Source: Spartobacteria bacterium (GTDB lineage Bacteria; Verrucomicrobiota; Verrucomicrobiia; Chthoniobacterales; UBA10450). From it: a stretch of 64,000 nucleotides of DNA. The translations under genes and the position numbers were made by a program. Location: contig PMTM01000012.1 in the NCBI GenBank assembly GCA_003167365.1, positions 3,255 through 67,254 of the forward strand, given 5' to 3'. The notes beneath the pieces are model-generated. The model did not search any database and was not told where the DNA came from. It worked only from the letters and a program-made list of their open reading frames with translations. This document shows positions 22,673 to 51,546 of the stretch, piece after piece. Every line of letters starts with the position of its first letter. The first letter of the stretch is position 1.

Positions 22673-22690
22673 AAAAGAACGAAATTGGAA

Positions 22691-26567: not shown

Positions 26568-26607
26568 TTGTCACACAGCTGTCACTTAGCGCGCGTCCAA
26601 ATGTTAC
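26568..26607 (+). promoter_or_regulatory. PHO-box array upstream of a PEP-CTERM gene
   Basis: Half-sites TTGTCAC (26568-26574) and CTGTCAC (26579-26585) are spaced by 4 nt, as in the E. coli PHO box. A further in-phase ATGTTAC stands at 26601-26607. The site is 107 nt before the ATG at 26714 and is the best-matching box in the window. Confidence 0.75.
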
Positions 26608-26713: not shown

Positions 26714-27571
26714 ATGATAAAAACACATAATCTTCTGAAAACGGCGCTGCTGGCTTTAGCCGGAACAGCGCTAGTTGCGTCATCGTCCATGGCGCAATCG
26801 GCTACCACGTATGCGCAGGGGGACTTCCTCCTCGGCTTCCGCGCCACCGGCGGGACAGGGTCGGGAAGCAATGTCCTAGTCGATATCGGACCGGGCTCGA
26901 GCTTTTTAACCTCAACCACTCCGGTCACGTTTAGTTTGAGCAACCTGTTTGCTACCTTGAACGGCGTATATAGTAGTGGGTGGACCACTCGTTCGGATGT
27001 CTTCTGGAGCGTCGCCGGCGCTGACTCTTCGAGTAATAGCACGGTCTACATCACAGTGCCCGAGACGGTGGGCGGCAGCGAAGCGACGCCTTGGACCAAA
27101 CTAGGCACTTCGTCACAGACCGGAGTCCGGAACAAGATCAACACCGAAGGCGGTACCCCGAACACCTCTGGGTACAATTTTTATACCGGAAATGCGAACC
27201 CCTACGGTGCGGGCCCGGCGGTGATCGAAGGCCAGACCGATAACAACAGCTACGGATCTTACCACCCGGGTGGCACGAGCTCGAACGCGGGACCTGCGCC
27301 GGGAATTAGCTACGCTGTATTCAATCCTACGATCGAAGGCACTTTCGCCAATGGAACAGGCGGAATCACGTTGGACCTTATCAAACTCGGAACTGGAACC
27401 GGGCCCGGCCAGGATCTTGGGGACTTTACCATTAGCAACAATGGTATCCTCACTTTCAAGCCGGATATCCTGGAAGTGCCCGAGCCATCAACCTATGCCA
27501 GTGCGGCGCTTGGGGCCGGCCTCCTCCTTTTGATCGTAGTTCGCCGGCGACGGCAATCCGCGAAGCTCTAA
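26714..27571 (+). CDS. PEP-CTERM sorting-domain exoprotein
   Basis: 285 residues. The signal peptide (LLKTALLALAGTALVASSSMAQ) is followed by a beta-rich mature domain with Gly/Ser/Thr-rich strands. The C-terminus has the exosortase recognition signal VPEPSTYASAALGAG, a hydrophobic helix and the basic end RRRRQSAKL. Such proteins are exported, processed by exosortase/EpsH and attached to or released at the surface. The ATG at 26714 is chosen because it begins the signal peptide; the open frame further upstream crosses the PHO-box. It starts a three-gene set (PstS-like, then a membrane-anchored protein) that the PHO-box may drive. Confidence 0.88.
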   Translation: MIKTHNLLKTALLALAGTALVASSSMAQSATTYAQGDFLLGFRATGGTGSGSNVLVDIGPGSSFLTSTTPVTFSLSNLFATLNGVYSSGWTTRSDVFWSVAGADSSSNSTVYITVPETVGGSEATPWTKLGTSSQTGVRNKINTEGGTPNTSGYNFYTGNANPYGAGPAVIEGQTDNNSYGSYHPGGTSSNAGPAPGISYAVFNPTIEGTFANGTGGITLDLIKLGTGTGPGQDLGDFTISNNGILTFKPDILEVPEPSTYASAALGAGLLLLIVVRRRRQSAKL

Positions 27572-27632: not shown

Positions 27633-28883
27633 ATGAAGACATTAAAAAACTTACTGGCGATTACAATCGCCTTAACGATGGTCGGAACCGTATCCGCCCA
27701 GACACATATATATGTTACGGGCTCGACCGCATTTCGATCGAGCGCGGTAGGCGCAATCAACACCCTCGTGGGTAAGACCCCCGACGCCTGGGACGGCAAT
27801 TCGAGCGGTGTCACTACCTCCACCAACGCGAACGCGCAGATCTGGAATACCGCGACATACATCGTCAAAGCATCCTGGTCTGGTTCTACCGGAGGCATTC
27901 AAACCGTGGCAGGTGCCCCGAACTTCAACGTCCGTTTTCTTGCCAACATTGGAACGAACGGCGTGGTGGCCGGCAGCAATAACAGCGACCCTCGTGGTTC
28001 AAGCAGCACGAACGCCGAAGCGCATGTTCCAGACATGAACTTTGCAGACACGTTCCAAGGTGGCACACCATTTAACGGCAAAGTTAATGGCGTGACGTAC
28101 GCGAACGAAACGGACAACTCAATCGGCATTGTTACCTTCCGTTGGACGGCCAGCGAGAACTTTCCGGGGACAAATATGACGCCGCAGCTCGCTCAGTACT
28201 TGTATACAAATGTTGGCGTTGCTCCGTTATCTCTTTGGACTGGAAATTCTGTCGACGCCGCCAAGGTCGTGTATGCGGGAGGACGCGACCCGGATTCCGG
28301 AACGCGCGCCACCACATATGCCGAAAGTGGCATCGGCATCTTCACAGGCGTACAACAGTGGCAGCCGATCAACATCTCGAGCGGTGTGATCGGCGACATC
28401 CAGTTGTATCCCCCGGAGACCGTCAACGGTATCTCCTTACCACAAGGTCAGGGTGGCGAGAGCAGCGGAAGTTCGTTACGCGCCTTTTTAACCAATACGC
28501 TGTCAGCAACTGCCGCCGGAGAATATAACGGTGCCACCACTGCCTATTTAATGGCTTATCTGGGTGTCAGCGATTCCAACGGAGTGATCAGCGGACAAGT
28601 GGCTCCAAACGGAAATGCGGTCGGGCTTACCTGGAACGGCGTCGCCTTCTCGCAAACTGCCGTTGAGCAGGGCCAGTACACCTTTTGGGGCTATGAACAT
28701 CTCGATTACGTTGGCAACCTGGATGGTAATAGTGGCACGGGCGGTAAACTCGCCTTCGCGACAAACCTGAAAAACGGTGTTGCCGGGTCGTCGTCTGCAA
28801 CTCTCAACCCGAATGTTGCGTTGGGCGACATGCAGGTCCAGCGCTTCTCGGATGGTGGCAACGTGCAGCCTATCGGATTCTAA
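27633..28883 (+). CDS. Secreted PstS-like substrate-binding protein
   Basis: 416 residues with signal peptide (LLAITIALTMVGTVSAQ). The mature start IYVTGSTAFRSSAVGAI resembles the phosphate-binding opening of PstS (GSTT-type loop), and VYAGGRDPDSGTRATTYAE corresponds to the R-x-SGT phosphate loop found further along in PBP-like domains. It lacks a PEP-CTERM or other anchor. Function in phosphate binding is inferred from these motifs and from the PHO-box of the preceding gene; the protein could also bind another oxyanion. No PstCAB transporter is encoded in the window. Confidence 0.65.
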   Translation: MKTLKNLLAITIALTMVGTVSAQTHIYVTGSTAFRSSAVGAINTLVGKTPDAWDGNSSGVTTSTNANAQIWNTATYIVKASWSGSTGGIQTVAGAPNFNVRFLANIGTNGVVAGSNNSDPRGSSSTNAEAHVPDMNFADTFQGGTPFNGKVNGVTYANETDNSIGIVTFRWTASENFPGTNMTPQLAQYLYTNVGVAPLSLWTGNSVDAAKVVYAGGRDPDSGTRATTYAESGIGIFTGVQQWQPINISSGVIGDIQLYPPETVNGISLPQGQGGESSGSSLRAFLTNTLSATAAGEYNGATTAYLMAYLGVSDSNGVISGQVAPNGNAVGLTWNGVAFSQTAVEQGQYTFWGYEHLDYVGNLDGNSGTGGKLAFATNLKNGVAGSSSATLNPNVALGDMQVQRFSDGGNVQPIGF

Positions 28884-28975: not shown

Positions 28976-29635
28976 ATGCGAATTCCCAAGCTCAGCGGCA
29001 GTGGCAAGCGAACGCTTATACGGTTTCTGGTCCCGTTTACCGTTACATACGCAGTCGGCCTTGCCGCTCTAATTCTGTACTTACGAAGCACCTCCGACGG
29101 ACCGGTAACAATCCTGCCAGCGAGGGCATCTGGTGAAGAGGCCGTTAATGAGCCGGCTGTTGGCGACGTGACAGAAACCACACAAACGAGTGAACCCGCA
29201 AACCGCGACCGCTCGGATAGTAACGCTTTAGCCGCGGCCAGCCGGAACGATTTCACCACGGATTACAGAAATAATGACCAATCATCGCCGCAGCCTGCGG
29301 CAAGCGATCGCGATAGCGCTGATCGATCTGTCACCTCGCCACCGCCAGGATCGAGCGGCTCCGACATGGCAGCGACGAACCAGAATGGTTTATCGGCAAT
29401 CGCATCGTCTGGATCTTTGACCAACGTTTCCCCTGCCGACATTGCGGCTCAGAACAGCGCACCGAATGCTACCACAACGAGTGCCACTGAACCAAATAAC
29501 GGCTTAAGTGAATATCCAGCAAGGCGGATCCCGTGGCACGACGGGTTCACCTTGGAACAAGAGTGGTATCGCAGCTGGTATGGCTGGGCTGCGTTCAATG
29601 GCCCGCAAACAGACGCCGCCAATCAGGGCAACTAA
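28976..29635 (+). CDS. Membrane-anchored low-complexity protein
   Basis: 219 residues. An N-terminal basic stretch and one membrane helix (FLVPFTVTYAVGLAALILYL) are followed by a long Ser/Thr/Asn/Asp-rich, disordered region, and a short conserved-looking C-terminus (IPWHDGFTLEQEWYRSWYGWAAFNG) rich in Trp and aromatic residues. I do not recognise it. It starts just after the terminator of the PstS-like gene and its stop is 14 nt from that of the convergent Sel1 gene. It may be an envelope protein partner of the nearby secreted proteins. Confidence 0.55.
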   Translation: MRIPKLSGSGKRTLIRFLVPFTVTYAVGLAALILYLRSTSDGPVTILPARASGEEAVNEPAVGDVTETTQTSEPANRDRSDSNALAAASRNDFTTDYRNNDQSSPQPAASDRDSADRSVTSPPPGSSGSDMAATNQNGLSAIASSGSLTNVSPADIAAQNSAPNATTTSATEPNNGLSEYPARRIPWHDGFTLEQEWYRSWYGWAAFNGPQTDAANQGN

Positions 29636-29649
29636 GCGCGATTCGCTCT

Positions 29650-30564
29650 TTAAGGATTTTGGCCCGGCGAGACGGATGGCATTGTAAAATCCATTTTGCC
29701 GGCCCGAAGCTTTTCGGCCAACCGGTTGCCTTCTTCAATCTGCGCCGGAGTGATGCCGTTTTCCCACTGGGCCAGAAAGGTTCTTGCCGTCACTTCGCCT
29801 TTTTCCGCGCTCAGCTTTAGCCATGCATACGCCCGCACGGGATCTCGATCGGCGGCGGCACCGGAGACATAATACTGACCGAGATTACTTTGCGCCTTGG
29901 CGTCGCCTTGCTCGGCCGCTTTCCGGTACCAATCGGCTGCTGCCTTCGGGTCCACGCTCACGCCCAATCCATGTTCGGACATGAAGCCCAGCGCGTTCTG
30001 CGCCCACGCGTTACCTTCCCGGGCGGGATGTGTCAGCCATTTCGCCGCATCTGTGTAATTCGGCGGGACGCCTTCATCTCCAAAATAATAAAGGCGGCCG
30101 AGATGAACTTGCGCATCGACGAACCCCTGATCGGCAGCTTTTTGAAACCATTTCGCGGCTTCCTTTGCGTCCTTTTTCACTCCAACGCCGTTCAGAAACA
30201 TGGTTCCGACGGTGTCCTGAGATTGCGGTATTTTCTGATCGGCGGCCACGTGGAACCATTTGAACGCCTCGGCTTCGTCTTTTTTCACCCCCCTTCCCTG
30301 AAGATACATGGTCGCCAGATTATGCTGTGCCTTCCCATGACCTTGCCCAGCGGCTTGCCGGAATAATTGCGCCGCCTTTGCGTCATCCTGCGCGGCGCCG
30401 TTGCCGTAAAAGTAAGCGCGGCCGAGTTGAAATTCCGCCTCGGTATCGCCTCTCGCCACCGCAGTCTTCAACTTTTCGATCTCCGCTGGATCCGCGGCAT
30501 CGACTACGGCGATGGCTAGTATTGCGCTCGCCAATATTGCGATACTCGCCGTGAGCCACGTCAT
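29650..30564 (-). CDS. Sel1-like repeat protein (periplasmic)
   Basis: 304 residues with signal peptide (ASIAILASAILAIAVVDA). At least six Sel1-type 36-residue repeats are visible (AEFQLGRAYFYGNGAAQDD, AQHNLATMYLQGRGVKKDE and similar), a TPR-like solenoid used for protein contacts. The start overlaps the giant exoprotein stop as ATGA (30561-30564), so it is co-translated with it and is likely dedicated to it, perhaps as a periplasmic assembly or folding factor (inference). The last residues are a Pro/Ser tail (MPSVSPGQNP). Confidence 0.9.
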   Translation of the reverse strand: MTWLTASIAILASAILAIAVVDAADPAEIEKLKTAVARGDTEAEFQLGRAYFYGNGAAQDDAKAAQLFRQAAGQGHGKAQHNLATMYLQGRGVKKDEAEAFKWFHVAADQKIPQSQDTVGTMFLNGVGVKKDAKEAAKWFQKAADQGFVDAQVHLGRLYYFGDEGVPPNYTDAAKWLTHPAREGNAWAQNALGFMSEHGLGVSVDPKAAADWYRKAAEQGDAKAQSNLGQYYVSGAAADRDPVRAYAWLKLSAEKGEVTARTFLAQWENGITPAQIEEGNRLAEKLRAGKMDFTMPSVSPGQNP

Positions 30565-33500
30565 CGGTGAGGGATTCGACTACTGTTTTGCGTGTTGGAA
30601 ACTTGGAGCGACTGCTGCTCCGCGGATGTTTGCGGTTGTTCCTGCTGCTTTTTCTTACGCCGACGTTGCTCTTCGTCCTGATCGTCGCCACCGCCATACC
30701 CGATCACTTCAACGGAAATGATGGAAGGCGTATCTTGCTGCGCGATAGGAGCGTTGTTTTGATTGGCGATCTGTGCAGCCGCGTCCGAAGTAGCCGCCGT
30801 GGTAGTCGATGCATTCGTCAACCCGGCTATGTTGGGAGCCGCGACCGTGGGAACGCCTGCACTCGAGCCACCCACCTGGATATTGCCCACGTTCAGAACG
30901 AGCAGCGCGGCGATGTTAATATTCCCCGAAACACGAATCCCGGCATCGCCCGCGTTAATCGTCCCTACGGGCGCGATGAGATCGACGTCCGCCGGCGGAA
31001 CACCGGCGACGGTTTCGAGGACACCTATCCCGCCCCCGGTAGCCAAGCCCGCGAGATCGGTTTTGACGTCCCCGCTCTGCGGATCGATAAGCACGCGAGT
31101 TGGCGGTGCCGACTGCACGGTCTTTGAAGAAGAACCAGCGTCAATATTTCCGACGGTGGACCAAATGATTTCATTGCCGCCGCGCAGTGTGAAAATGCGC
31201 GACGTGCCGACATTAACGTCGCTGTGAGTGAAGATTGATATGTTTCCTCCGTCCTCGGTCAGGATGCCCTGATCGGCTGCCTGACCCCCGGTGACATTAA
31301 TGCCCACATTCAACGCGCCGCCCGGCGCAAACAGGCTGATGTTGCCACCGTTCGCAGTCTTAATCTCACGCGACGTGAGAGAGATGTCGCCTTGCCACGT
31401 ATTCCCGGGGAATAGCGCAGCGATTGCGGCCAGTCCATTTGTATACTGCCCGAAGCCGGGGCTTGAAGGATCATTGTGATCGCGTCCCGCGTCGCGTAAA
31501 ACGAGATAGAAAATATCGAGGGCGAGCTGGTCTTGTTTTTCGGGTGGCAACTGGTCGAATCGCGACCAAATTTCGGAGTCACTCGCGCCAGTCAAACCTA
31601 ACAGGGTGCCCAAATCCGGAAGATACCGTGCTGACTGTACGCTGTCATTGGTGGGATCAAGAAACTGATCGACAAAGGTTTTGAAGTCGAGAGTGCTGTG
31701 GGCCAAACCATTGGCAATATCGATGCCGGCACCTGCGATGACATCCGCTCCTACGAAAGGCAGAAAAGGATTCCGCGCATTGCCGATGCTGGTGATACCG
31801 ACGCCCGTGCCATCAGGGTTGTTCGGTCCGACGCCGAGATCGAGATTGCGTCCTGCCAGTACTTCCAGCGTGCCCGGTCCGCTGATTTGGATATCGCCCG
31901 CCGCCGGACCGTTTTGAACTTCGTTCCCGACAGCCTGGGCCGAGACACGCAGCGAGGAATTTGGGTCGTAGGCGATGATATCACGGCCGGCTGCCACCAC
32001 GCTGATATCACTTGGTTTATCGTTTTGAATATAGAGAGCGATGTCGGTAATGTCCTTACTGGCCACCACACGCGCCGCCTTGCCGGAAAACAATGTGAAT
32101 CCAGAGATGTCACCAGTTCCAGCGTAGATATGAATTGGATTCGGATCATCGGCATGGAGAATTCCCTGAGCGTGGAGGGCCTGCTTTGCCTGTAGAACGG
32201 CGGCGGCTCCCTGAGTCGATCCGGTCTCGGCGAACAAATTATCGATGAAAGTGAGAAAATCGAGGTCGGTGCTTTGATTAGCTGAGCTACCGGTCGGCGT
32301 AGCCAGCACCGTCCGGAAGGCGAAGGGCGAAGTGATCCCCGGAATGCGCGCCGGGTCTGCGTCGGAGAGATTGATGGTGCTCGCCATCCAAGTTGTTAAC
32401 GAAGCGTTAACAAGCCCGTTTGGTTGCAGTCCGTTGATCGCTCCCTTTGCCGCAAGATCGACGGTTCCGTTGGGCGCCGGAAACAAGGTGAGATTACCGT
32501 CAACATTCAGATTTCCCGAAAACGCCGAAACGCGGAGCGTGGAAGGCATCAATGAGACAACCGTAGTAAACGGAGGAGCAGTGACACTATTCTCGTCGAG
32601 TCTTAACCATGGTTGGTAAAACGAGGCGCTTTGCTGTCCAGAGATAGTCCCCAGCAGCGAGATCGCGGAAAGCCACGCTTGTAGAATTGGCGACGAAGCC
32701 GTCGGTAGGGTGGCATTCTCGCGGAGAGTCACATCACCCGTCAGCGAAGAGACATTGACCGCATCGGTGGAGGCATAAGTCGAAAAATACGTCTTGTACC
32801 AAAAGACATTGTTAACGCCTTCGGGCAATAAGAATGGATTTGCGACGGGGCCGAGCAACACATCACCGCGCGCCGACACGTCGAAGCTGCCTTTGCCTAG
32901 GAATAGCGTGGTGGGCAGCCAGGTAATGGAGGGCAATATGTCATCGGGAGTAACAAGCGTTGTGCGTGACGGCGAGCGCGTGCTGTTGGTATGGATGCTG
33001 TTGCCGGCCGTAAGCGTTCCCTGGCCACGCTCGACATAATAGACACCGCCGTTGATGTCGTTGCCGGACGTCACCGTTACATCACCGCCGCCCAACTCCA
33101 CCAGGTTAGCCGCGTTCGGCGCGATCGCATGTCCCATCGAATCTTTGCCTGGCATGCGCGCATTTGTCGGCGCAACCGCGTCAACGTTGCTCACGTCATG
33201 CCCGGCGGTGAGCGTCACGTTTCCACCTCCGAGTGCTCCCACCCCTTCGAAAAAGTTGCTGAAATCGACCCACCATGTCGTCGACCCGACGTCGTTGCCT
33301 GTGTTTCTGGTTACTGGCGCGAAAAGCCCGGTCGTAGGATCAATGTAACCCCGCCGATAAAGCCAGTTGTTGGGAAGCTCGCGTGATGAGTCGTCAATGA
33401 CAGTGCCATCTGTCATCTGTGTTAGATGACTGATGTCACGTTGAGCAGAGATGGTAACGTTGCCGCCCGCGTAGCTGTACTGCGGGAGATAACCTGGCCG

Positions 33501-36500
33501 GGCCTGTTGCGCCACACCAAGGTTGCCTGTGCTTTGACCAACCGGATCGGTCTTGGGGAGATCGAAGGTTCCGCCCATGGTCGGATCGCTTACTCGCGTG
33601 CCGGCCGTAAAAATCGTGGCGAATTGATTGAGTAGCTGCACATCTCGGCCAGCCGAGATATCGATGTCGCCAGTGCCCGTGCGAATCACCTGATACCGGG
33701 TTGCGACCGCTGTGCTGGTCAACGCGCTCGGCCCAGACACCCCAAAGACATTATTGCCGTAGTTCTTGCCAAGTTGCAGAGAACCGGAGCTCTGCGCCAG
33801 GAGCGACAACGGCTCGACTTGTTGAAAATCCACCGCGCTAAAGTCCGCCCCGGCGACCAGCCGATAGGACCAGGATTGGACGTTAGCCGGCAGAAGTGAA
33901 TTCTGAGCTAACAACACGGCATTGTAAGCGCTCGAGGTAAAGCCATCGCTCAGCGCGTTGTAGAAAACTAGGTTCCCCGCGGCGCGCAACGTCAACACAC
34001 CGGGAGCATTGTTTGGCCCGAAGCGATAAGTGGAGAGATCCCAATCGCTCGACGAGTCGGAATTTGGAGAACCGAGCGTCAAATCTCCATTCGGGTTGAT
34101 AATCTCAGCCCCAGGCACAACTACCGTGACGGGCGCGAGGCTGGCGTTGTTTGCGAGCAGCCGAGCGCTGATCGCGGCGCTGTTCCCGCCGAAAGTCGTC
34201 CCATTCGCAAAAACGTTTGCCTCTTGATTGTTGATCGAGCCGGCCGTCGCACTGAAAATCTTGTACCCCTCCACCAGGATGCTCGAGGCGTTCAAAATCG
34301 TGCCGTCGATTGGATTAATTTGAAGATCGGTGCTACTGGCAGTTTGCGGCGCACGCAAATGCAGCGTGCCGGTGAAATCGCCAAGACTCGCGCTGTTTGC
34401 GTTGTTGCTGGCAACCGATAAATCGATTGTCGATCCGTTCTCGATGTCTACGACCGCGGTCGTGCTGTAAGTACCGTTTGTTTCCGATCCGGCCTCAAGC
34501 GAGACGGCCCCGCCTTTGCCTGCGTCATCGAAATTCTGGCCAGCGACTGTGAGAATTGAGCCGGACGAAAGCGTCACGCTGCCATAGGCAATCAAGTTAA
34601 TGGTTCCGCCCGTCGCACCCGAAGCATCGATTGACCCTGTCACATCAATTGAACCTTGATCCGCTGATAAATCGAAAGTGTGACTCGTCGCTGTCCCATC
34701 AACAACCACGTCACCCGTGCGCACGCGAATGGAACGCGACTGAGTAAAGGAAGCGGTGTTGAGCATGGCGTCGAGATTTCCGAGTGAGGACAGACTGCCG
34801 ACATCGAGACTGAAACTCCCGTTCAGGCCATTGGCTCCGCCTTGACCATTCAGGGTTCCGTTAACAATGAACGAACCGTTTGGCGCGCTTACGGAAAGCG
34901 TTCCAGCGTTTCCGCCACCACTTTGCGCGGCGATATTAATCGTCCCGCCGCTATCGACATTCACCGCGCCGTTGTCGGCGATCAGATTAATCTGCCCGCC
35001 ACTGGTGTATTTGACCAAATCAAAAAACGTTTGCGCGGTTCCGCTGACATCGAGCGTGCTCGGAGACGCGCTGCCGATCACGAGGTCGCCATTGGTCGCG
35101 TGTAATGTGAGTTGTCCGCTTGGCAAACTGATGTTCGTATCGACCGATAGGCTCGCGCCCGAGATCGTCAGGTTCGCCCCGAGTCCAGCAATCACGGTTG
35201 CGATCGAGGGACTGCCCGGAGCCTCCAAATGAACCGCGCCGCTTGCTGTGAGCGATTGTGTAGACCCGAGCGCGCCGGTGATAAGCGGCGTGATCAGCGT
35301 CAAATCGCCTTGTGTGGCAAAACCTCCGGAGCCTTGGGTCAAGATTCCGCCGCTGGCATTGAGCGTTAGCGCAGCAAACTGGTCCACGTTCAATTGATTA
35401 CTGCCGATCTGAATTGTGCCCGCGTCGAACTGAAGGGTGCCGCTCGGTGAAGCGACCGCTCCCGGAGCACTGGCGTTCGCGACATTGTCCAGGGTGATGT
35501 TTTTTGCCGCGAAATCGACCGCACCGCCATTGTTGAATCCGCGGATTTCGCCGGCATGAAGTTGCAGAGCGTTTGAGGCTTTGATAGTGCCCGATCCGTA
35601 TATGTCGATGGAAGAATAACTGAGGAGCGAGAGAGATTGCACCGACTCAACATTCTGAAGAGCGACTCCGGCCAGCACCAAACCCGCAGTAGGCTGCGAG
35701 ACAATTCCGTTAGGCAATTGAATGCTGATCTGGCCGCTATCGAGGTTCACTGCCGTCCCACGGATAGTTGCGGTAGGATCGAGACTCGTGCCATAGGTAG
35801 AGTCCAGCGTTACACTCGCGCCAGCGAGGAGCGTATTTGCCCCGATCACTTCACGTGGAACCGTTGAAGAATCCACACCGAGTCGGCTGATTGATGCGTT
35901 CGGATCTGCACTCACTCTTAGTAAAACGCCGTCGCCGCTTCCGGGAATAGATAAATTTCCAAACTGGAGAGACGTCGCCGATGAAAGCGAACCGGATGCT
36001 TCGATGTCAGCCCCTGGAGCGAGAGTAAGGTTGCTGTTTGCGGCGAGTATTAGATCCCGCACGGACAATGGAGCTCCAGCATTATCTACCGTGATTTCAT
36101 CCGTCGTCACGGTCACCGTCGTGCCGGTGGAGCTTGTCGTGCGAAAACCGCCGATCAATAAACTTTCAGCGCCGAACGCGCTAAGCTCGGACGAATTGAG
36201 AACGAGCACGCCTGCCTCGGGAGCAGTCCCAGATCCCGCAATCAGAATGTCGAGCGGACTGCTGATATCGACCTCGCCGCCGCGACCGCCAGTGGGCGCC
36301 TGTGCGAGCAAAGCGCCCTGTATATTCATCGATTGCGTTGCGTCCAGCAAAAGATAGCCGGCATCAATGGGCAAACGCGGAACGGATTGATTATTAGTTA
36401 GCGCACTCTGCTTCAAAAAGGTGTTGGCCGAAAAATCGGTGTACTGAGCGCGCTGCCGAACGACCGTTTGGGGAGCAACTTCAAAAGAGGAGAAGAGTGG

Positions 36501-39500
36501 CTGACTCGCAGGAGTGTCGAAACCGCTGAAGCGATAACCCGCGACGATGGTCGACCCATCGGCTTGCAGTGAGGCAGTCGTTGGAGTTCCGGCTTCCGGG
36601 GTGATCAGGAATGCTCCCGGCAACAACGCGTATCGCGCTGGAAGCAGTGTGTACGTTCCGGCAGGAAGGCCGTTGCTGGCGTTGAGAAAGACCTGCTCGC
36701 CGACTGTCAGATTCCCATTCACGTAACCCTGGTCCGTCCCGAATACGCCGCCCGCGCTTGTGCTATAGGGTGCAAACGGTGCGTACGCTGCCTGGTATCC
36801 CGGGATAACCGCGAAACTGGAAGATGAGCCGAGAATGTCGCTAGTCCCGCCGGTTCCGGAAACGAATTCGTAAGCGTAGAGGTCGCCTCCCCCGCGGACA
36901 TCAATGGTCGATCCCGCCAGATTAGAGACGTTCGCCCCCGCGATGTTGATGGACTTGGTCGGAACGCCTCCAGCGGTTATGTCGATTCCCGTCGGATCAA
37001 TCCAGGATGTCCCGTTAGGGTTCGTGCCGTACGGAATAGTCAGGGCGGTTCCGGTCACGGGATCAACAGCCGAAACGGAAGTGACGCTGGTCGATGAAAG
37101 GGTCACTTGCTGCGCCACCGGCACGGCATGGCCTGTGATTAAATCTATAGGACCTGTTCCAGTGCCGTCCCAACCAATGTTGATCGTGCCGATCGGCGCA
37201 CGTAAAACACCACCATCATTGATGACTGAACTGTAAAGGTTGAGTTGTCCGCCGGCGGACAAAGGCAGTTGGCGATTTCCCGACGCAGTCAACTCGATTG
37301 AACCCTGGTTTGTTACACTACCCACCTTATAATCGTAGGCTGCGATGGTGAAACTTACGGCCGTGGGCGGATAGATCTGGCCAGCCGTGATCGAAAGGTT
37401 GCCGGCTACATCAAAGGTGCCGTCGCCACGAACATCGCCGTTGTTCGCCACCAGATTGGCATTGCCGATTCCCTGAAGCGACAGATTGCCCACATCGATC
37501 AAAGTGGCGGAGATATTTAAGCTGCCCGCGCCGTACATCGGCAAAAAATTGAACGCTCCCGAGCCAAGTAGAAATGCGCTCATCACTTGCTGCGGCTGGA
37601 CCGGTGCGGCAAAGGCCGTTCCGATCTGAACATACGGAGCATTTAGATTGATGGCCGCATCGCCAAAGACGACTCCGCCATTAGCAACACTGATGCTGCG
37701 CCCAGCATCGATCGTGACCGGACCCGAAAACTGGACGAATCCTTGCAACGTAAGTGAAGCCAGTCCGGAGTTGTTAAACTTGTCAGCGGCAAAATAGCCA
37801 AGACCAGCCAGCGGCTGGTTGTTGGCGTCGACCACCGCATGACCAATCGCGGTTTGACCGGCGGGATAGAAAGACGCCGGTATCGTCAGAGCGCTTTGCG
37901 TGACCACCAGTGTTTCGTCGAGCGGTGTGAGTTGGGACAGCGTGAAGCGGCCTGATGAGATCGACAAGCTCCCACCAAAGGCAGACGGGCCACCAGCTGC
38001 ACCTTCAAAGGTCGCATCGGTGAATAGTTCCTCAGTTCCTGTAAGCGTGATGAAGCCGCCGTTGCTGTCGACGCGAGTGGCAACAAACGGAGCTCCAGTT
38101 AGTGATCCAGTGACGGCCGTTCCCCCGAAGCCGGGCGCCAGATCCAGTATGCCAGTCGCGCCCGAAACGTCCATTCGCGACCCATTTTCAGCTACGATGT
38201 TGCCGGAGACCGTGATATTGCCACCAGCCAGCACGCGTCCAGTTCGAAGGTCGAGAGAATTGGGTGTTAGAACAGTCATCCCAGCAGCGGACAGAAAGCT
38301 CGTTGGCCCTAGATCCACGGTTGGGAGAGCCTCTGACGGATTCGCATTCAATACTGTCGACTTGTCGCCAGTGATCGAAATGGTGCCGCCAGGTGCGATG
38401 ATCGACCCTAGAACCGCGACCGTATTGCCCGTGATGGAAATCTTGGCCAGAGGGTCGGTTTGAATGAGCGAGCCCTCACCCATGACAAAGTCGCCGCGAA
38501 CTACCGGTAGAATGCCCGCCGTGATAAAGGGACTGCGAACGCCCGGCGTGCGAAATGACAAGCTCACCGGCGTACGCAAACCTTGCGGCAAGACCGTCGG
38601 CGTCAATGTAACTGTCCCCCGCCCGTTCAGATCGAGATTCGCCAGCAAACTTTGCGCTACTGGTTCGATCGTTGTTCCCGGCGCGATCAAGACTCCGGGG
38701 AGAAATTGATTTGGTTGCGCAGTTGCCGCTCCCAGACCCGTGAGGGTGAAAGAGTCGAACCCTCCCTGACTGAAGAAGTCGGGCGAGAGTAAAAGTGTAT
38801 CGAGGTCGGTGGTGCTTCCTCCCACTTGAATCAATGGCGCTTGGATACTTAATGAGCCGCCCGTGTCCCCGGAATATCCAGTCAGGTTTCCGGCCAGGGT
38901 CAGCTGGCCCCCGAGTAACGACGGAATGTTTGGATCCTGGCCTGATCTGATCGTAATCGCCCCAGCTGTGCCATAGGCGACCTGACCGGTGCCGCTGACG
39001 GTCACGCAACCAGAGACATCAATGCTGCTGCCCTGAGCGAGATCGACATCATAACTATTGACCGTAACGTTTCCGCCGTTCGGCGTATAGGTCGGACTTA
39101 CCGGCAACACCGACGTGGAGCGGTTATCCGTGATCATTCCCGCTGCGTCCAGCGATGCCTTCGCTCCGAGAATGAAATGGCCGCGGGCGGGATCGGGCGG
39201 CGGCGTTTGCGGGTTGAGACTCAGCTTGAGAAAGCCAAGTTGGAATGGCGAAAAATCATAGACATTGAAAGCCAAACTACCGTCGGGCGACGTCAATCTG
39301 CCTTCGATATCAATATTCGCCGCCGAAAAACTGATTCCGTTCGTAAATTTGAAGAGTTTAGTCGTCGGATCAATTTCCCCGCCAATTCCAGTCGTTAACA
39401 CTACATCGGCAGGCACAGTGATGTTTCCGTCGCTATTGTCGATCTTAAGGCTTCCGAAGCCATCGACGTTCACGAAATCGGGTGAAAGAATCACTTCATG

Positions 39501-41963
39501 TTTTCGGTCGGCTCGCAGCGGGATAGGATTACCGGAATTATCGAGAGCAAATGGATCAGCCGGAGGCAGGCTGCCCGATCCGAAAACAATATTCGGCGGC
39601 GTTGGCGAAATGGACAGGAAGGGAACCACGGTCGGATCTTGCGCTTGAAACACCAAAGATAACGAACTCGGTGCTGGAGGTGTCGTGGTTTGGCGCGGAC
39701 CTGCAATCGTGGTGCCGCTAAGCTGTCCATCCACCGCCATGGAAGGCGCCGAAATGGTCAAGCTTCCGCCGTTTCCGCCTTGAATATAGCCCGCTTCGAA
39801 CTGGCCGCTCCCGGGCAACGGATTGCCAAAGGTATCAATCACTCCCCATTTCGTATGAACGGTTGAGAATCCATTAAGAATCCCGTCATAAACCCGATCG
39901 GGCGTTGCCTGGGAAATATCGAAAACATGCCCACCCGAAACCACCTGCGTCGTTTGGACATTGGCGCCGGCATAGTTGATCCAGCCGCCGGAAACGTTAA
40001 TGCTCGATCCGGGTTGCATAATGACCGACTCACCGGCACTAAGTGTCACGTTGCCGCCGTTGGTCGTTAGTTCGCCAACCGTGCGCTGCACCAGATTCAC
40101 ATAGCCGGAAACATCTGCCAATGGTGTGCCAACCCAAGTTTGCCCGTTATAGGTTCCTGTTTTGGTGATGTCGATGTAAACGGTTTGGCCGCGCAGCGGG
40201 CCGTTGCGTTGCAAGGGAGAGTCGGCTAATTCCGGACCTAGCAGCTGCGCGGCGACAATATTTTCCGCAACTGACGCGATCACATCCTGCGAACCAGAAA
40301 CATCGATGATTGCATCGGCATCGAGATAAATTTGTCCGCCGGAAAAAACAAAATTACTGACGGAATAAAAACCGGTGACCGGAATCCAGTTGCCCGCTTC
40401 GATCGTGACGCTGGCGCTGGGCGCGAGCAAGATCGCGCCGGCAGCCTCATGGACGGCCAAGCCTTGGAGATTGATCTGTGAGGAAAGAGCCAGCTGAGTG
40501 CCGACCACTCGGTCTATGCTCGTGAGCTCCGGCAGAATCTGAGTCACACTGTTCGTGCCCAGCGTTACAGTGCCGCTCGATTGGAAAACAAATGGAGGCA
40601 AGTTCGCAGGAACCGAGTTACTGCCGAAGACAAAGCTGTTGGCGTTGAAATCGGCGAGCAGATCGATCCGTCCATTCAGGGAGACAGAGGTCGAACTGTT
40701 AATGAAGCCAAATTGATCGACCATTTTGCCTGCGATCGTCACGTCAGCTCGCGGCGCGTCGATCAAACCGCTGTTTGTCGCGGTACCGGCGTAAGGAGCC
40801 AGAAGGGAGAGAGGGTCTGCAACCGCGCCGACGTAGACGTCCAAGCCGCGTAAGCTCGGATCGCTACTATCATGCGCGCCAAATCCAACCTGCAGCCCGG
40901 CGGCAAGAATAGTTTGCCCATCGGGTGTCGTAATTGTTCCGTCATTTGTTACATTCGCTCCGATCAACGCAACGCGGCCGCCGACGTGATCTGCTGATGT
41001 CGGACTGGTGATCTGTGCGCCTGCTTGAACGGTTACATCGCCATAATGTCCATCCGGCGTGTTCGAGGTAGGGGGAGTGAAGGTCGGGGTACCGCCGTTG
41101 TTGCCGCCCGGAGCCAACGGCAAAGCCGAGAAAAGAAACTGGTTATCAGGATTGTTGAGTAACCCGCGCGCGATCAGATTATCATTAATCGGCAGCGCTG
41201 AAGCGACGAGCGCGTGCAAATTAATCTGGGATGAGCCGCCGAAAATGATTCCATTTGCGTTAATGACATAGACTTGGCCAATCGCATCGAGCGATCCAAG
41301 AATTTGCGATGGCACACCAGAGGGATCGTTGACTTTGTTGAACGCGATCCACTGACTCGCGTTGGCACCGCCCGCGGTTTGGTCAAAGGTTAAGTGCGTG
41401 TCCCTGCCGATGTTAAACGTCTGCCAATTCAGCAGTGCCTGTTGCGCTGTCTGAACGATCGAAACGTTTGTTTGTGCGCCGCTAGTTGTTTGTGTCGGTA
41501 GACTTGCGCCTTGCCAAAGATCGGGGTTATCGCCTGGGCTTGGATGGGCAAGATCGACAGGAACTCCGGGCGCAATTTGCAAACCGCCGACGCCCAAGCC
41601 ATTTGGAACATTCGGTAATTGCTGACCAGGATGATTCGGGTCCAATCCAAGATTGTTTGCGCCGGTAACCGCCGCGGCATGAGCCGCTGCCTGCATCGCC
41701 TGCACGGCCTGCAGAGCCTGCGTCGTTCGCGCAAGCGTATCGTGTCCGTTAAGTCCCGCCTGTACAGCCGCAGCTGTGGGATTTCCCGTTTCGGGCGCGG
41801 TGCTGTGCGATTCCTGAGACCCGCCGCCTCCGCGCAGGATGTCGCCGGCCAGCAGTGTAAACCATGGCGGGACCGCCAGAAATAATGTCAGAAATAAGGC
41901 GAGCGTGCTTTGAATTGCGCCGGGCCGTCGACTTGTTCGTGAACGGAAGTTGTGTGAAGACAT
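30561..41963 (-). CDS. Giant filamentous-haemagglutinin-type TPS exoprotein (TpsA)
   Basis: 3800 residues. A long basic n-region and hydrophobic core (STLALFLTLFLAVPPWFTLLAGD) form the signal. The TPS secretion domain at about 160-290 (QTAQQALLNWQTFNIGRDT and INANGIIFGGSSQINLHALVAS) is the FHA N-terminal domain recognised by a TpsB transporter. The rest is low-complexity beta-helix with GNVTLSAG- and GDVTLTA-type strands. The C-terminus is a very charged tail (DDQDEEQRRRKKKQQEQPQ). No C-terminal toxin domain is seen. It lies 153 nt after the TonB-linked operon, with its own PHO-box in the gap. A PEP or LPXTG signal is absent. The family is annotated as a filamentous haemagglutinin outer-membrane protein in many genomes. 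Confidence 0.93.
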   Translation of the reverse strand: MSSHNFRSRTSRRPGAIQSTLALFLTLFLAVPPWFTLLAGDILRGGGGSQESHSTAPETGNPTAAAVQAGLNGHDTLARTTQALQAVQAMQAAAHAAAVTGANNLGLDPNHPGQQLPNVPNGLGVGGLQIAPGVPVDLAHPSPGDNPDLWQGASLPTQTTSGAQTNVSIVQTAQQALLNWQTFNIGRDTHLTFDQTAGGANASQWIAFNKVNDPSGVPSQILGSLDAIGQVYVINANGIIFGGSSQINLHALVASALPINDNLIARGLLNNPDNQFLFSALPLAPGGNNGGTPTFTPPTSNTPDGHYGDVTVQAGAQITSPTSADHVGGRVALIGANVTNDGTITTPDGQTILAAGLQVGFGAHDSSDPSLRGLDVYVGAVADPLSLLAPYAGTATNSGLIDAPRADVTIAGKMVDQFGFINSSTSVSLNGRIDLLADFNANSFVFGSNSVPANLPPFVFQSSGTVTLGTNSVTQILPELTSIDRVVGTQLALSSQINLQGLAVHEAAGAILLAPSASVTIEAGNWIPVTGFYSVSNFVFSGGQIYLDADAIIDVSGSQDVIASVAENIVAAQLLGPELADSPLQRNGPLRGQTVYIDITKTGTYNGQTWVGTPLADVSGYVNLVQRTVGELTTNGGNVTLSAGESVIMQPGSSINVSGGWINYAGANVQTTQVVSGGHVFDISQATPDRVYDGILNGFSTVHTKWGVIDTFGNPLPGSGQFEAGYIQGGNGGSLTISAPSMAVDGQLSGTTIAGPRQTTTPPAPSSLSLVFQAQDPTVVPFLSISPTPPNIVFGSGSLPPADPFALDNSGNPIPLRADRKHEVILSPDFVNVDGFGSLKIDNSDGNITVPADVVLTTGIGGEIDPTTKLFKFTNGISFSAANIDIEGRLTSPDGSLAFNVYDFSPFQLGFLKLSLNPQTPPPDPARGHFILGAKASLDAAGMITDNRSTSVLPVSPTYTPNGGNVTVNSYDVDLAQGSSIDVSGCVTVSGTGQVAYGTAGAITIRSGQDPNIPSLLGGQLTLAGNLTGYSGDTGGSLSIQAPLIQVGGSTTDLDTLLLSPDFFSQGGFDSFTLTGLGAATAQPNQFLPGVLIAPGTTIEPVAQSLLANLDLNGRGTVTLTPTVLPQGLRTPVSLSFRTPGVRSPFITAGILPVVRGDFVMGEGSLIQTDPLAKISITGNTVAVLGSIIAPGGTISITGDKSTVLNANPSEALPTVDLGPTSFLSAAGMTVLTPNSLDLRTGRVLAGGNITVSGNIVAENGSRMDVSGATGILDLAPGFGGTAVTGSLTGAPFVATRVDSNGGFITLTGTEELFTDATFEGAAGGPSAFGGSLSISSGRFTLSQLTPLDETLVVTQSALTIPASFYPAGQTAIGHAVVDANNQPLAGLGYFAADKFNNSGLASLTLQGFVQFSGPVTIDAGRSISVANGGVVFGDAAINLNAPYVQIGTAFAAPVQPQQVMSAFLLGSGAFNFLPMYGAGSLNISATLIDVGNLSLQGIGNANLVANNGDVRGDGTFDVAGNLSITAGQIYPPTAVSFTIAAYDYKVGSVTNQGSIELTASGNRQLPLSAGGQLNLYSSVINDGGVLRAPIGTINIGWDGTGTGPIDLITGHAVPVAQQVTLSSTSVTSVSAVDPVTGTALTIPYGTNPNGTSWIDPTGIDITAGGVPTKSINIAGANVSNLAGSTIDVRGGGDLYAYEFVSGTGGTSDILGSSSSFAVIPGYQAAYAPFAPYSTSAGGVFGTDQGYVNGNLTVGEQVFLNASNGLPAGTYTLLPARYALLPGAFLITPEAGTPTTASLQADGSTIVAGYRFSGFDTPASQPLFSSFEVAPQTVVRQRAQYTDFSANTFLKQSALTNNQSVPRLPIDAGYLLLDATQSMNIQGALLAQAPTGGRGGEVDISSPLDILIAGSGTAPEAGVLVLNSSELSAFGAESLLIGGFRTTSSTGTTVTVTTDEITVDNAGAPLSVRDLILAANSNLTLAPGADIEASGSLSSATSLQFGNLSIPGSGDGVLLRVSADPNASISRLGVDSSTVPREVIGANTLLAGASVTLDSTYGTSLDPTATIRGTAVNLDSGQISIQLPNGIVSQPTAGLVLAGVALQNVESVQSLSLLSYSSIDIYGSGTIKASNALQLHAGEIRGFNNGGAVDFAAKNITLDNVANASAPGAVASPSGTLQFDAGTIQIGSNQLNVDQFAALTLNASGGILTQGSGGFATQGDLTLITPLITGALGSTQSLTASGAVHLEAPGSPSIATVIAGLGANLTISGASLSVDTNISLPSGQLTLHATNGDLVIGSASPSTLDVSGTAQTFFDLVKYTSGGQINLIADNGAVNVDSGGTINIAAQSGGGNAGTLSVSAPNGSFIVNGTLNGQGGANGLNGSFSLDVGSLSSLGNLDAMLNTASFTQSRSIRVRTGDVVVDGTATSHTFDLSADQGSIDVTGSIDASGATGGTINLIAYGSVTLSSGSILTVAGQNFDDAGKGGAVSLEAGSETNGTYSTTAVVDIENGSTIDLSVASNNANSASLGDFTGTLHLRAPQTASSTDLQINPIDGTILNASSILVEGYKIFSATAGSINNQEANVFANGTTFGGNSAAISARLLANNASLAPVTVVVPGAEIINPNGDLTLGSPNSDSSSDWDLSTYRFGPNNAPGVLTLRAAGNLVFYNALSDGFTSSAYNAVLLAQNSLLPANVQSWSYRLVAGADFSAVDFQQVEPLSLLAQSSGSLQLGKNYGNNVFGVSGPSALTSTAVATRYQVIRTGTGDIDISAGRDVQLLNQFATIFTAGTRVSDPTMGGTFDLPKTDPVGQSTGNLGVAQQARPGYLPQYSYAGGNVTISAQRDISHLTQMTDGTVIDDSSRELPNNWLYRRGYIDPTTGLFAPVTRNTGNDVGSTTWWVDFSNFFEGVGALGGGNVTLTAGHDVSNVDAVAPTNARMPGKDSMGHAIAPNAANLVELGGGDVTVTSGNDINGGVYYVERGQGTLTAGNSIHTNSTRSPSRTTLVTPDDILPSITWLPTTLFLGKGSFDVSARGDVLLGPVANPFLLPEGVNNVFWYKTYFSTYASTDAVNVSSLTGDVTLRENATLPTASSPILQAWLSAISLLGTISGQQSASFYQPWLRLDENSVTAPPFTTVVSLMPSTLRVSAFSGNLNVDGNLTLFPAPNGTVDLAAKGAINGLQPNGLVNASLTTWMASTINLSDADPARIPGITSPFAFRTVLATPTGSSANQSTDLDFLTFIDNLFAETGSTQGAAAVLQAKQALHAQGILHADDPNPIHIYAGTGDISGFTLFSGKAARVVASKDITDIALYIQNDKPSDISVVAAGRDIIAYDPNSSLRVSAQAVGNEVQNGPAAGDIQISGPGTLEVLAGRNLDLGVGPNNPDGTGVGITSIGNARNPFLPFVGADVIAGAGIDIANGLAHSTLDFKTFVDQFLDPTNDSVQSARYLPDLGTLLGLTGASDSEIWSRFDQLPPEKQDQLALDIFYLVLRDAGRDHNDPSSPGFGQYTNGLAAIAALFPGNTWQGDISLTSREIKTANGGNISLFAPGGALNVGINVTGGQAADQGILTEDGGNISIFTHSDVNVGTSRIFTLRGGNEIIWSTVGNIDAGSSSKTVQSAPPTRVLIDPQSGDVKTDLAGLATGGGIGVLETVAGVPPADVDLIAPVGTINAGDAGIRVSGNINIAALLVLNVGNIQVGGSSAGVPTVAAPNIAGLTNASTTTAATSDAAAQIANQNNAPIAQQDTPSIISVEVIGYGGGDDQDEEQRRRKKKQQEQPQTSAEQQSLQVSNTQNSSRIPHR

Positions 41964-42116: not shown

Positions 42117-42731
42117 TTATTGCCGCTCCGGCTTCGCCCGCTGGTCGGCGATTTTGTCCTGATAATCCTGCACGAGATTCTCCAGTTTCACCCGAGCGAT
42201 GCCCGTAAATGGCTCGCGTGCGGCCAGCGCGTCACCGAGTCCAAATTTCTCGTAACGTGTCAAAATTTCGTTGCCGAGTTTGAACAACTCCGCGTTTTTC
42301 CGTTCTCGATCTTCGAGCTTGTGCTTAAGAACAATCGACTCGCCAGCCAGCTTTGCGCGTTCCGCTTCCGTTTTCTGCGCAGTGGCAGTGACCTGTTCGT
42401 AGCCGGCTTTCCATTTACCAAGCGCCTCCTTCGTTTCGATCAGTTCTTTTTCTTGATCGCCGGCTTTCGAGTTAAGGGTATCGATCTGTGCCTTGTCGGT
42501 CGCGGCCTGTTTTGTCAGCACGTCGATTTTCCCGGTGAGTGTTTTCTTTTCCTGCTCGAACTGTGCTTTATCGCTGAGCAGGTTATTGCGTTCGGTTTCG
42601 TCAGAACGCAGCCGAAGCGTTAAAGTACGCAACGTTTCGCGCAAGCGCGCTTCATCGGCTGCGGTCGCATTTCCGGCGAGAAGCAAGCAGGTAACGGTGG
42701 AGGCAATGAATAATCGGATTTTCGGTTTCAT
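42117..42731 (-). CDS. Periplasmic coiled-coil protein of the TPS operon
   Basis: 204 residues starting MKPKIRLFIASTVTCLLLAGNATAAD, a signal peptide. The body is almost entirely helical with heptad-rich Lys/Glu segments (ETERNNLLSDKAQFEQEKKTLTGKIDVLTKQ, ELIETKEALGKWKAGYEQV), ending in NLVQDYQDKIADQRAKPERQ. This is a long coiled-coil spanning much of the chain. Its ATG shares one base with the porin stop (TAATG), so it is translationally coupled and last in the TpsB operon. A role as a periplasmic bridge or chaperone for the exoprotein is inference. Confidence 0.75.
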   Translation of the reverse strand: MKPKIRLFIASTVTCLLLAGNATAADEARLRETLRTLTLRLRSDETERNNLLSDKAQFEQEKKTLTGKIDVLTKQAATDKAQIDTLNSKAGDQEKELIETKEALGKWKAGYEQVTATAQKTEAERAKLAGESIVLKHKLEDRERKNAELFKLGNEILTRYEKFGLGDALAAREPFTGIARVKLENLVQDYQDKIADQRAKPERQ

Positions 42732-44796: not shown

Positions 44797-45465
44797 TTAG
44801 TGAGGACGTCGCGCGGTAACGCGAAGCGTGATTGGCGCGGGCATCCCGGCTGGTGGCGGCTCCTGCAATTGCAGACCGGTCAGAACTTCGTCGCGAAGGG
44901 CGCTGTCGAGTGCCGGATCGCCGGTTGAGCCAGCAATCTGCGCGCGATTGATTCTGCCGGTTGCATCGGGCCAGACCCGAACGTTGACGCTCAAACTGGC
45001 GCTACGTGTCTTCCGATTGCGCCGGAGCGCCTCTTCGATTTTCGTTTGTACCTGACTGGCGTACCAACCCCACTTGCTGCCGTTGCCGCCGGGGCCAATT
45101 CGTCCGTTTCCCGCTTTGTCGCTCAGGCCGAAGCTATCTGGTCCGTCACCCTTGATGCCTGTTCCTAGTGGCGGCTCATCTTTCGGTGGCGCTTCCTTCG
45201 GCTGTTCTTCTTTGATCATCGGTTGTTCCATTTTTTGCTCGTCTTGTGGTGGCAGCGGAGGCGGCGTCATTTGCTGCGGCGGAGGTGGTGGCGGCGGCAA
45301 ACTGACCATGGTGATTGGGTCGCGACGCGACGATCCACCTCCACTCGACGCGAGTTTCGCGACAACGATGACGCACACGAGCAATACTCCCGTAACGATG
45401 ATCGCGACGCGGTATCGTCGCAGGAAATTCTGCGGCGGTGGTTCAAGTTCATCATCGAAATCCAT
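44797..45465 (-). CDS. TonB-family energy transducer
   Basis: 222 residues. A membrane anchor near the N-terminus (VAIIVTGVLLVCVIVVAKL), a Pro- and Lys/Glu-rich spacer (PPPPPPPQQMTPPPLPPQDE) and a C-terminal TonB-type domain (about 140-222: YASQVQTKIEEALRRN, DATGRINRAQIAGSTGDPALDSALRDEVLTGLQL) fit the TonB/TolA class. It transmits proton-motive force from ExbB/ExbD to outer-membrane transporters. It sits 17 nt after exbD and 17 nt before the porin, inside the TPS operon, so its partner should be one of these outer-membrane proteins. Confidence 0.88.
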   Translation of the reverse strand: MDFDDELEPPPQNFLRRYRVAIIVTGVLLVCVIVVAKLASSGGGSSRRDPITMVSLPPPPPPPQQMTPPPLPPQDEQKMEQPMIKEEQPKEAPPKDEPPLGTGIKGDGPDSFGLSDKAGNGRIGPGGNGSKWGWYASQVQTKIEEALRRNRKTRSASLSVNVRVWPDATGRINRAQIAGSTGDPALDSALRDEVLTGLQLQEPPPAGMPAPITLRVTARRPH

Positions 45466-45482: not shown

Positions 45483-45884
45483 CTACTTGCCTTGCGGTTT
45501 TGTCGCCAAACCCACCTGGGAAATTCCCAGCCGTCCGATTACATCGAGCACATCCATCACAGCCTGGTATTGCGTGAGGCTGTCGCCTCTAACGACCACT
45601 GGAAAATCCGGTGTCTGCGCTTTTTGAGAATTCAGTCGCTGCTCAAGCTCGGGAATCGTGACTGGAATGGTGTCGAGGAAAATTTTGCCCTCGTTGTTGA
45701 TCGTGATCGCCTTCGTTTGCGGCTTCGCCAGGCTGGGCGAAGTGCTCGCTTTGGGCAGGTTCACTTTCAAACCCTGCACCGTCGCCGTCGTCATCAGGAT
45801 GAAGATGACGAGGAGCACGTAAGCGAGGTCCAACATCGGCGTGATGTTGATATCGTCGTACGGTTTATCGCCTTGAACTTGCAT
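45483..45884 (-). CDS. exbD: ExbD/TolR-family biopolymer transporter
   Basis: 133 residues with one membrane helix (MLDLAYVLLVIFILMTTATV) containing the proton-channel Asp (D19 in NITPMLDL), followed by the periplasmic domain. This is the usual ExbD length. The protein forms the motor with the ExbB-type protein encoded 16 nt upstream. It is followed by the TonB gene, completing the energy-coupling set. Confidence 0.9.
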   Translation of the reverse strand: MQVQGDKPYDDINITPMLDLAYVLLVIFILMTTATVQGLKVNLPKASTSPSLAKPQTKAITINNEGKIFLDTIPVTIPELEQRLNSQKAQTPDFPVVVRGDSLTQYQAVMDVLDVIGRLGISQVGLATKPQGK

Positions 45885-49724: not shown

Positions 49725-49753
49725 TTGTCACAGAACTTTAACCTAACGGTAAC
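49725..49753 (+). promoter_or_regulatory. PHO-box triplet before the response-regulator gene
   Basis: Three heptamers, TTGTCAC (49725-49731), CTTTAAC (49736-49742) and CGGTAAC (49747-49753), each separated by four A-rich nucleotides. The 11-nt period is that expected for PhoB-family direct repeats. It lies 69 nt before the regulator start, so autoregulation is likely. Confidence 0.7.
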
Positions 49754-49822
49754 GCTATCGCCACGTTGCTGCGTATAGGCTGGCGGGAGTTTTGATGACA
49801 AAGCTCACACAACAGAAATTCG

Positions 49823-50605: not shown

Positions 50606-50638
50606 GCGCTCCGGTCGGGACTATTAGACGGTTTCGTC

Positions 50639-51476: not shown

Positions 51477-51528
51477 TCATATTAATAGAGCGTGCGGTAG
51501 CGGCATTCGTCCGGTCAAAATTTTTCGG

Positions 51529-51546
51529 GTTACAATTGGATGACAG
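51529..51546 (-). promoter_or_regulatory. PHO-box upstream of the pstB remnant and phoU
   Basis: On the minus strand, CTGTCAT-CCAA-TTGTAAC: the first half-site equals the E. coli consensus and the spacing is exactly 4 nt. It sits 53 nt before the pstB remnant and 210 nt before phoU, where the original pst promoter would be, so the promoter seems to have survived the deletion. Confidence 0.78.

Follow-up and report, generated by a model that had tools for sequence, protein, structure and literature searches.

A putative Verrucomicrobiota version of the Pho-controlled locus combining a secreted PstS-like protein with TPS exoprotein and TonB-porin genes

Introduction

The closest described counterparts of the locus presented here come from Pseudomonas. 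P. fluorescens makes Psp, a PstS-like protein of the DING type, which is Pi-induced and secreted mainly by the Hxc system, and its gene adjoins that of a 4083-aa protein with a haemagglutination domain; its authors propose a role in extracellular phosphate scavenging (PMC2225411). In P. aeruginosa, the VreI/PhoB regulon includes Hxc, lapA, lapB, pdtA, pdtB, exbB2, exbD2, tonB4 and PA0696-PA0699, with PA0696 being a putative porin, PA0698 YbjN-like and PA0699 PpiC-like (PMC7035377, PMC2729926, PMC9769906). Among the targets of PhoB are the pdtA promoter, whose pho box is required for expression, and the phdA promoter, which drives pdtB-exbB2D2-tonB4-PA0696 (PMC4971064). In PMC7035377, exbB2-exbD2-tonB4 is termed uncharacterised and PA0696-PA0700 is termed of unknown function.

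Here we describe a gene for a PstS-like protein, F1, and its surroundings in the window, by which we mean the whole 64-kb stretch of Spartobacteria DNA that was analysed. The combination of F1 with TPS and TonB-porin genes in Verrucomicrobiota is undescribed among the literature matches listed.

Results

The F1 gene occupies positions 27633..28883 of the forward (+) strand, starts with ATG and encodes 416 aa; it is defined by its open reading frame, a 57-member family profile and the conservation of its loops. Its first 22 codons (27633..27698, +) are predicted to encode a Sec-type signal peptide, read from the sequence as MKTLKNLLAITIALTMVGTVSA-Q, without a lipobox, as judged from sequence, hydrophobicity and cysteine count, and the mature N-terminus would be QTHIYVTGSTAFR. 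The whole 416-aa sequence contains no cysteine and no hydrophobic C-terminus, so that the suggestion of the earlier note that the protein is exported without an anchor agrees with the sequence evidence. A PEP-CTERM signal is absent from F1 itself according to Pfam and NCBIfam, whereas the neighbouring protein F0 carries one, and the DINGGG motif is absent from the mature N-terminus.

Searched as a single sequence, F1 gave no match in Pfam or NCBIfam at E<=10, and its sole match in the PDB was a ribosomal protein (E 1). The profile of the family, in contrast, retrieved two solved PstS structures from the PDB, 4ecf (E 6.9e-14) and 4exl (PstS 1; E 2e-12), the next match having an E-value of 1.6, and the alignments to them include the DSGTR loop as well as, towards the C-terminus, a W-S-Y-E-H motif. 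No solved DING protein was among the PDB matches of the profile at E<=10. The possibility that F1 binds molybdate or tungstate was set aside, there being no such PDB protein among the matches of the profile. Conversely, the Pfam family PBP_like_2 (PF12849) recognised none of the 57 members at E<=1. When the F1 profile was run with filters off, the best E-value among 38 ORFs of the order's PstS set was 2.3e-6. AlphaFold2 predictions made from 7 and 6 sequences were of low confidence (mean pLDDT 39 and 36). By profile similarity, F1 is a remote relative of PstS that is invisible to standard family libraries. Like classical PstS (PF12849; 4ecf, 4exl), F1 has the ligand-loop motifs, and the profile similarity extends to both ends of the protein; unlike classical PstS, it has no adjoining PstCAB genes, its mature part is about 130 aa longer than 4ecf, it lacks a Pfam match and it is encoded in the context of surface proteins.

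A protein search detected F1 homologues in 11 of 58 genomes, including its own. Five loci from named Verrucomicrobiota genomes also carry a homologue; two of these loci belong to Chthoniobacter and one each to Akkermansiaceae, Spartobacteria and an unclassified genome. With the profile, F1 was found in 49 of the 117 genomes of the order that are >=90% complete, but in only 8 of 288 genomes sampled evenly across the phylum, each of the 8 belonging to the same class. That F1 is mobile cargo was considered and set aside: there was no relative in 31 viral-contig stretches, and a search of plasmids with F1 gave no match.

Four loops of F1 were delineated by motif and homologue alignment, all on the forward (+) strand: loop 1, TGSTAFR (residues 29-35; 27717..27737); loop 2, WSGSTGG (residues 82-88, with Ser85; 27876..27896); loop 3, PDMNFADTFQ (residues 133-142, with Asp139; 28029..28058); and loop 4, GRDPDSGTR (residues 217-225, with Arg218, Ser222, Gly223 and Thr224; 28281..28307). 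By motif, we take F1 residues S85, D139, R218, S222, G223 and T224 to correspond to the contacts S38, D56, R135, S139, G140 and T141 that we assume for E. coli PstS. All six PstS-type ligand residues (Ser/Asp/Arg/Ser/Gly/Thr) are kept in the F1 of the window. In the alignment of 57 members, R218 and G223 are invariant (57/57), Ser85, Asp139 and Ser222 are each present in 48/57, and position 224 is Thr or Ser in 47/57, i.e. 47-57 of the 57 members keep the residue, depending on the position. Three of 60 F1 sequences were left out of this alignment, namely those of locus L073, which keeps loops 2-4, and of L080 and L081, in which the loop-4 pattern is absent. Because the loops recur across homologues and the profile retrieves solved PstS proteins, the resemblance to PstS is more than chance. 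The reading frame is present at the coordinates given in the earlier note, and its PstS-like loops, which had been noticed in the single sequence, stand up to comparison with other genomes.

Eight of the 57 members have lost ligand residues jointly: loop 1 has become SNGD, S85 is Ala, D139 is Thr, S222 is Ala and T224 is Gln. They form one clade with a support of 1.0, which persists in a tree built without the loop columns. The clade is encoded at loci L027, L028, L044, L045, L048, L050, L056 and L057 (SNGD / GA / ST / AGQ). Seven of the eight genomes with a changed-site F1 hold a canonical copy too, and one (G053) has the changed type alone. The joint change of the residues suggests that they work as one pocket, which may be given up or re-tooled. 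In view of this clade, and of the divergence of L080 and L081, the site would be dispensable for the family as a whole.

The surroundings of F1 are organised as follows. Directly 5' of F1 lies the gene of F0 (26714..27571, +), a 285-aa PEP-CTERM protein scoring above the Pfam and TIGR02595 cut-offs, and a Pho-box-like site, TTGTCACACAGCTGTCAC (26568..26585, +; 15.6 bits with the pstS-promoter matrix), is located 129 bases 5' of the F0 start. The PEP-CTERM neighbour of which the earlier note spoke is confirmed, and the genome contains three exosortase genes above cut-off. Downstream of F1, a small protein with an N-terminal membrane segment (28976..29635, +) is encoded at the position taken by TM3/TM7 in other loci; it is unmatched by the TM3/TM7 profiles. 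The genes that follow are on the reverse (-) strand and encode a Sel1-repeat protein (29650..30564; Pfam), a giant TPS exoprotein of 3800 aa with a TPS domain and DUF3739 (30561..41963), CC12, a small exported coiled-coil-like protein at the position of PA0697 (42117..42731), a Porin_5 putative porin (42731..44779; Pfam, E 6e-189), TonB (44797..45465; Pfam), an ExbD-like protein of 133 aa, assigned by sequence and lying between ExbB and TonB (45483..45884), a DUF2341-LamG-ExbB protein (45901..47790; Pfam) and a TpsB of the ShlB/FhaC type with POTRA (47820..49514; Pfam). An OmpR/PhoB-type response regulator (49823..50605, +; Pfam) with a Pho-box-like site at 49725 (17.5 bits), and PhoU (50639..51319, -; Pfam) with one at 51529 (19.4 bits), complete the set.

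According to Pfam, no phosphate permease is encoded by the window ORFs scanned, and pstS-C-A-B-phoU is present elsewhere in the same genome (G000:C1). The statement that F1 occurs without a pst transporter is thus true for the locus and not for the cell. The genome's GspD-like secretins score below the curated cut-off. Two other regions of the window deserve mention. Just 5' of F0-F1, at 22685-26394, an 812-aa ORF without Pfam match and an AAA ATPase (AAA_22, 5.7e-13) form a pair that, we presume, resembles the MuA/TniB-type transposition pair; and at 60512-63951, NosD and nos_propeller/cupredoxin genes mark a nitrous oxide reductase region with adjoining ABC transporter genes.

The order TpsB, ExbB, ExbD, TonB, porin, small gene and TPS giant is that of the PUMA3 (sigma-VreI/PhoB) module, the comparison being one of published gene order and not of sequences. 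Also like PUMA3, the locus has putative PhoB control, for which the evidence in the window is Pho boxes only, and adjoining genes for PstS-like secreted proteins (PMC7035377, PMC2729926, PMC4971064, PMC9769906). Unlike PUMA3, the window contains Sel1 and PEP-CTERM genes and another PstS subfamily, and no Pfam match to VreAIR, Hxc, PpiC or YbjN was obtained among the 33 window ORFs scanned. The similarity to the Psp locus of P. fluorescens SBW25 consists of a secreted PstS-like protein, a predicted Pho box, a position apart from the pst operon and an adjoining giant protein; Psp, however, has DINGGG at its N-terminus, and genes for Hxc type II secretion flank its own gene (PMC2225411), whereas F1 lacks the DING signature, matches PstS structures other than those of DING proteins and is accompanied by a PEP-CTERM protein.

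Plasmid records of Proteobacteria provide a bridge to Pseudomonas. An ExbB query yielded 11 records, and eight stretches were examined with profiles of the Verrucomicrobiota locus: ExbB, TonB and the small gene were found in 8/8 and TpsB and the porin in 7/8, and the order TpsB-ExbB-TonB-porin-small gene was the same in six of the eight. The giant gene is annotated in four of the five annotated stretches, and DUF3739 is common to the giants of the window, Methylosinus and Aquabacterium. In Methylosinus, a DING-like protein that matches a solved DING protein at 1.9e-8 is encoded directly after the giant gene, and in Burkholderia arboris two PstS-like ORFs lie about 13-16 kb from TpsB. Aquabacterium encodes an F0-like PEP-CTERM protein (E 1.3e-10). 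A 426-aa protein without family or PDB match is encoded between its PEP-CTERM and TpsB genes (L124, 5464-6741), and the RPQTSGT loop of this protein could be the mark of a very diverged PBP. The Cupriavidus sp. USMAA2-4 stretch contains a gsp type II secretion cluster. Judged by these sequence comparisons, the locus would be the Verrucomicrobiota version of a Pho-controlled secreted-PstS / TPS / TonB-porin locus, one in which the PstS-like protein belongs to a separate subfamily and is accompanied by PEP-CTERM proteins. The earlier note had touched neither on this context, a conserved TPS / TonB-ExbBD / porin locus like the Pho-controlled Pdt locus of Pseudomonas (PA0690-PA0699), nor on the pst operon that the genome carries at another place.

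The gene company of F1 was counted at 59 of 65 loci, those at which F1 was called; the F1 ORF was not called at L024, L033, L038, L041, L054 and L063, and L021 and L022, which are repeats of L032 and L036, were kept outside the counts. It should be noted that most of these stretches are short (3.9-20 kb), compared with 64 kb for the window. The F0 PEP-CTERM family is present at 46 loci, the giant TPS exoprotein at 35, Sel1 at 23, the small membrane proteins TM3 and TM7 at 20 and 9, the response regulator at 10 and TpsB at 9. F0 lies on the same strand and directly 5' of F1 in 38 of the 56 cases evaluated. At the level of whole genomes, a TPS domain is found in 47/49 genomes with F1 versus 15/68 without (Fisher p 6e-17, uncorrected for kinship), and a full-length Porin_5 class in 47/49 versus 7/68 (p 1e-22, likewise uncorrected for kinship). 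Of 61 F1 copies (collapsed rows of the profile search, two short G081 pieces left out), 38 have a TPS domain encoded on their own contig no more than 25 kb away, many of the remaining copies being on short contigs. Genes for PstC/PstA-like proteins are found by F1 at one of the 65 loci (L081), with weak matches, and a PF12849-type PstS gene at one other, two genes away (L074, 6802-7764, in G042; E 6e-35). At L033 (5738-8083; genome G046), PEP-CTERM and F1 sequences share one unbroken 781-aa frame, which is either a natural fusion or the result of a lost stop, and L025, L047 and L052 encode F0-family proteins of 1,000-1,500 aa near F1, compared with the usual 250-320 aa.

The matrix used to score Pho boxes was built from pstS promoters, the ten best being taken out of 30, and the threshold was 12 bits. 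A plain E. coli consensus separated none of the sets, the pstS controls included, and the starts of the control genes were poorly placed; the consensus was loosened after window sites such as TTGTCAC, so that sites of the window, and not of other loci, helped to choose it. Thirty-nine F0 genes with a start that could not be placed were left out. Sites of >=12 bits precede 11/24 F0 genes adjoining F1, 8/12 other F0 genes, 9/18 F1 genes without F0 upstream, 5/10 TpsB genes and 3/11 response regulators, compared with 13/271 unrelated genes of the same loci. None was found for F1 genes located behind F0 (0/38), which fits a single F0-F1 transcript. Ten sites in the 64-kb window score >=11.5 bits, and none of them falls outside the interval from 26,568 to 57,426. 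Nine further Pho-box-like sites occur at 49725-57443, around the response regulator, PhoU, CHAD, metallophosphatase and a second PEP-CTERM gene, and this part of the window is likely to be a Pho island. The enrichment of Pho boxes supports, computationally, PhoB-type control of F0-F1 and the neighbouring module, a control that had previously been an inference.

The porin family is tied to phosphate independently of F1 through its proximity to pst genes. Of 70 shorter Porin_5 matches in the order, counted without the second pieces of split matches, at least 28, each from a different genome, have their start no more than 3 kb away from a PF12849 gene. Five such stretches were read: the porin is directly 5' of pstS in L129 and L131 and upstream of pstC-A-B-phoU in L133; pst genes are present in L130 and L132, and the porin position is overlapped by another ORF. 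The Porin_5 protein of the window had no meaningful match in the PDB. The position of Porin_5 genes beside pstS or the pst operon suggests a family of phosphate porins.

Discussion

The reading that we favour, and that we consider reasonably probable, is that the F1 locus serves in the extracellular capture of phosphate by a Pho-induced surface apparatus. It is based on the match between the F1 profile and PstS, the kept ligand residues, the linkage to TPS and porin genes, the Pho boxes and the synteny of the module, all of which were computed, together with the published work on Psp and PhoB; the ligand and the outer steps are inferred. According to this reading, F1 would be a substrate-binding protein of the PstS family that has turned into a secreted one. 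Phosphate starvation would, through PhoB-type regulation, switch on the PEP-CTERM/F1 operon and the TpsB-ExbB-ExbD-TonB-porin-TPS genes. Exported by Sec, F1 would bind its ligand, orthophosphate or an anion resembling it, on the far side of the inner membrane. The outer membrane or the space outside it is the most likely place for this, and there F1 may lie beside the TPS giant and the PEP-CTERM protein after its sorting. The bound anion would then enter through the Porin_5 channel, possibly with the help of the TonB/ExbBD motor, and be imported by the PstSCAB system encoded elsewhere in the genome.

Several observations count against phosphate capture, among them the joint loss of ligand residues in one clade and the diverged loops of L080 and L081. 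The hhalign comparison of the F1 profile with the order's own PstS profiles was weak (probability 54, 19 and 1), no type II secretion genes were found among the window ORFs scanned, and the site at the TpsB gene of the window scores 9.7 bits, under the threshold. In the 59 mostly short F1 stretches, DUF2341-LamG-ExbB is present at only 8 and the porin at 7, and no PstS-like gene was found near the plasmid loci of Klebsiella and Cupriavidus sp. USMAA2-4. Finally, according to PMC2225411, P. fluorescens that had lost Psp was not limited in competitive growth under laboratory conditions.

Other explanations differ from phosphate capture in what the PstS-like fold would be used for. The main role of F1 could be that of a structural component or a part of the matrix that accompanies the TPS and PEP-CTERM proteins, its PBP fold serving for contacts or another ligand and phosphate controlling its expression only. 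In favour of this explanation, the changed-site clade stays in the same type of locus and the loops of L080 and L081 have diverged too, and a surface layer is suggested by the TPS fibres together with F0 proteins of giant size; nevertheless, the site residues are kept in 48/57 members at 26-46% identity to the window F1, and all but one of the eight genomes that have the changed type retain a canonical copy, and we regard it as unlikely. It is decidedly unlikely, in our judgement, that F1, as a secreted protein with a PstS fold, acts as an enzyme in the manner of LapA or assists phosphatases, freeing phosphate from organic esters rather than storing or carrying it. F1 is not close to DING/LapA proteins, given that its family profile retrieved no DING structure at E<=10, and neither a phosphatase motif nor an enzyme family match was recognised in it. 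This must be set against the description of LapA and LapB, which are DING-like and encoded beside pdtA in P. aeruginosa, as secreted alkaline phosphatases (PMC2225411, PMC9769906), and against the two alkaline phosphatase genes in the Methylomagnum plasmid stretch.

The remaining explanation concerns location: F1 might never leave the cell and instead buffer or sense phosphate in the periplasm, supplying the PstCAB system encoded elsewhere. The genes that recur together with it encode surface proteins (TPS, PEP-CTERM) and a porin of the outer membrane, and its Pseudomonas analogue Psp is described as extracellular (PMC2225411), which makes a periplasmic location very improbable, even though F1 has a plain Sec signal only, a secretion partner is not encoded beside it in the window, and the genome has PstSCAB. 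Extending phosphate capture at the surface to both phyla, one may speculate that Verrucomicrobiota and Proteobacteria share an energised import of phosphate across the outer membrane, in which a secreted PstS-type protein at a TPS fibre delivers to a Porin_5 channel driven by TonB/ExbBD, with a side branch re-tooled for another ligand; we put this forward tentatively, as something that is rather doubtful.

In summary, standard libraries (Pfam, NCBIfam) miss the F1 family, and a gene context is now supplied for it. One PEP-CTERM family, F0, is now tied to phosphate starvation by its predicted Pho boxes, and the changed-site clade offers a natural control for the role of the ligand. The presence of the same module with a PstS-like exported protein in a second phylum, together with Porin_5 genes beside PF12849 genes in at least 28 genomes, points to phosphate capture. 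A phosphate role for the TonB module of P. aeruginosa, termed uncharacterised, thereby becomes testable in non-pathogens.
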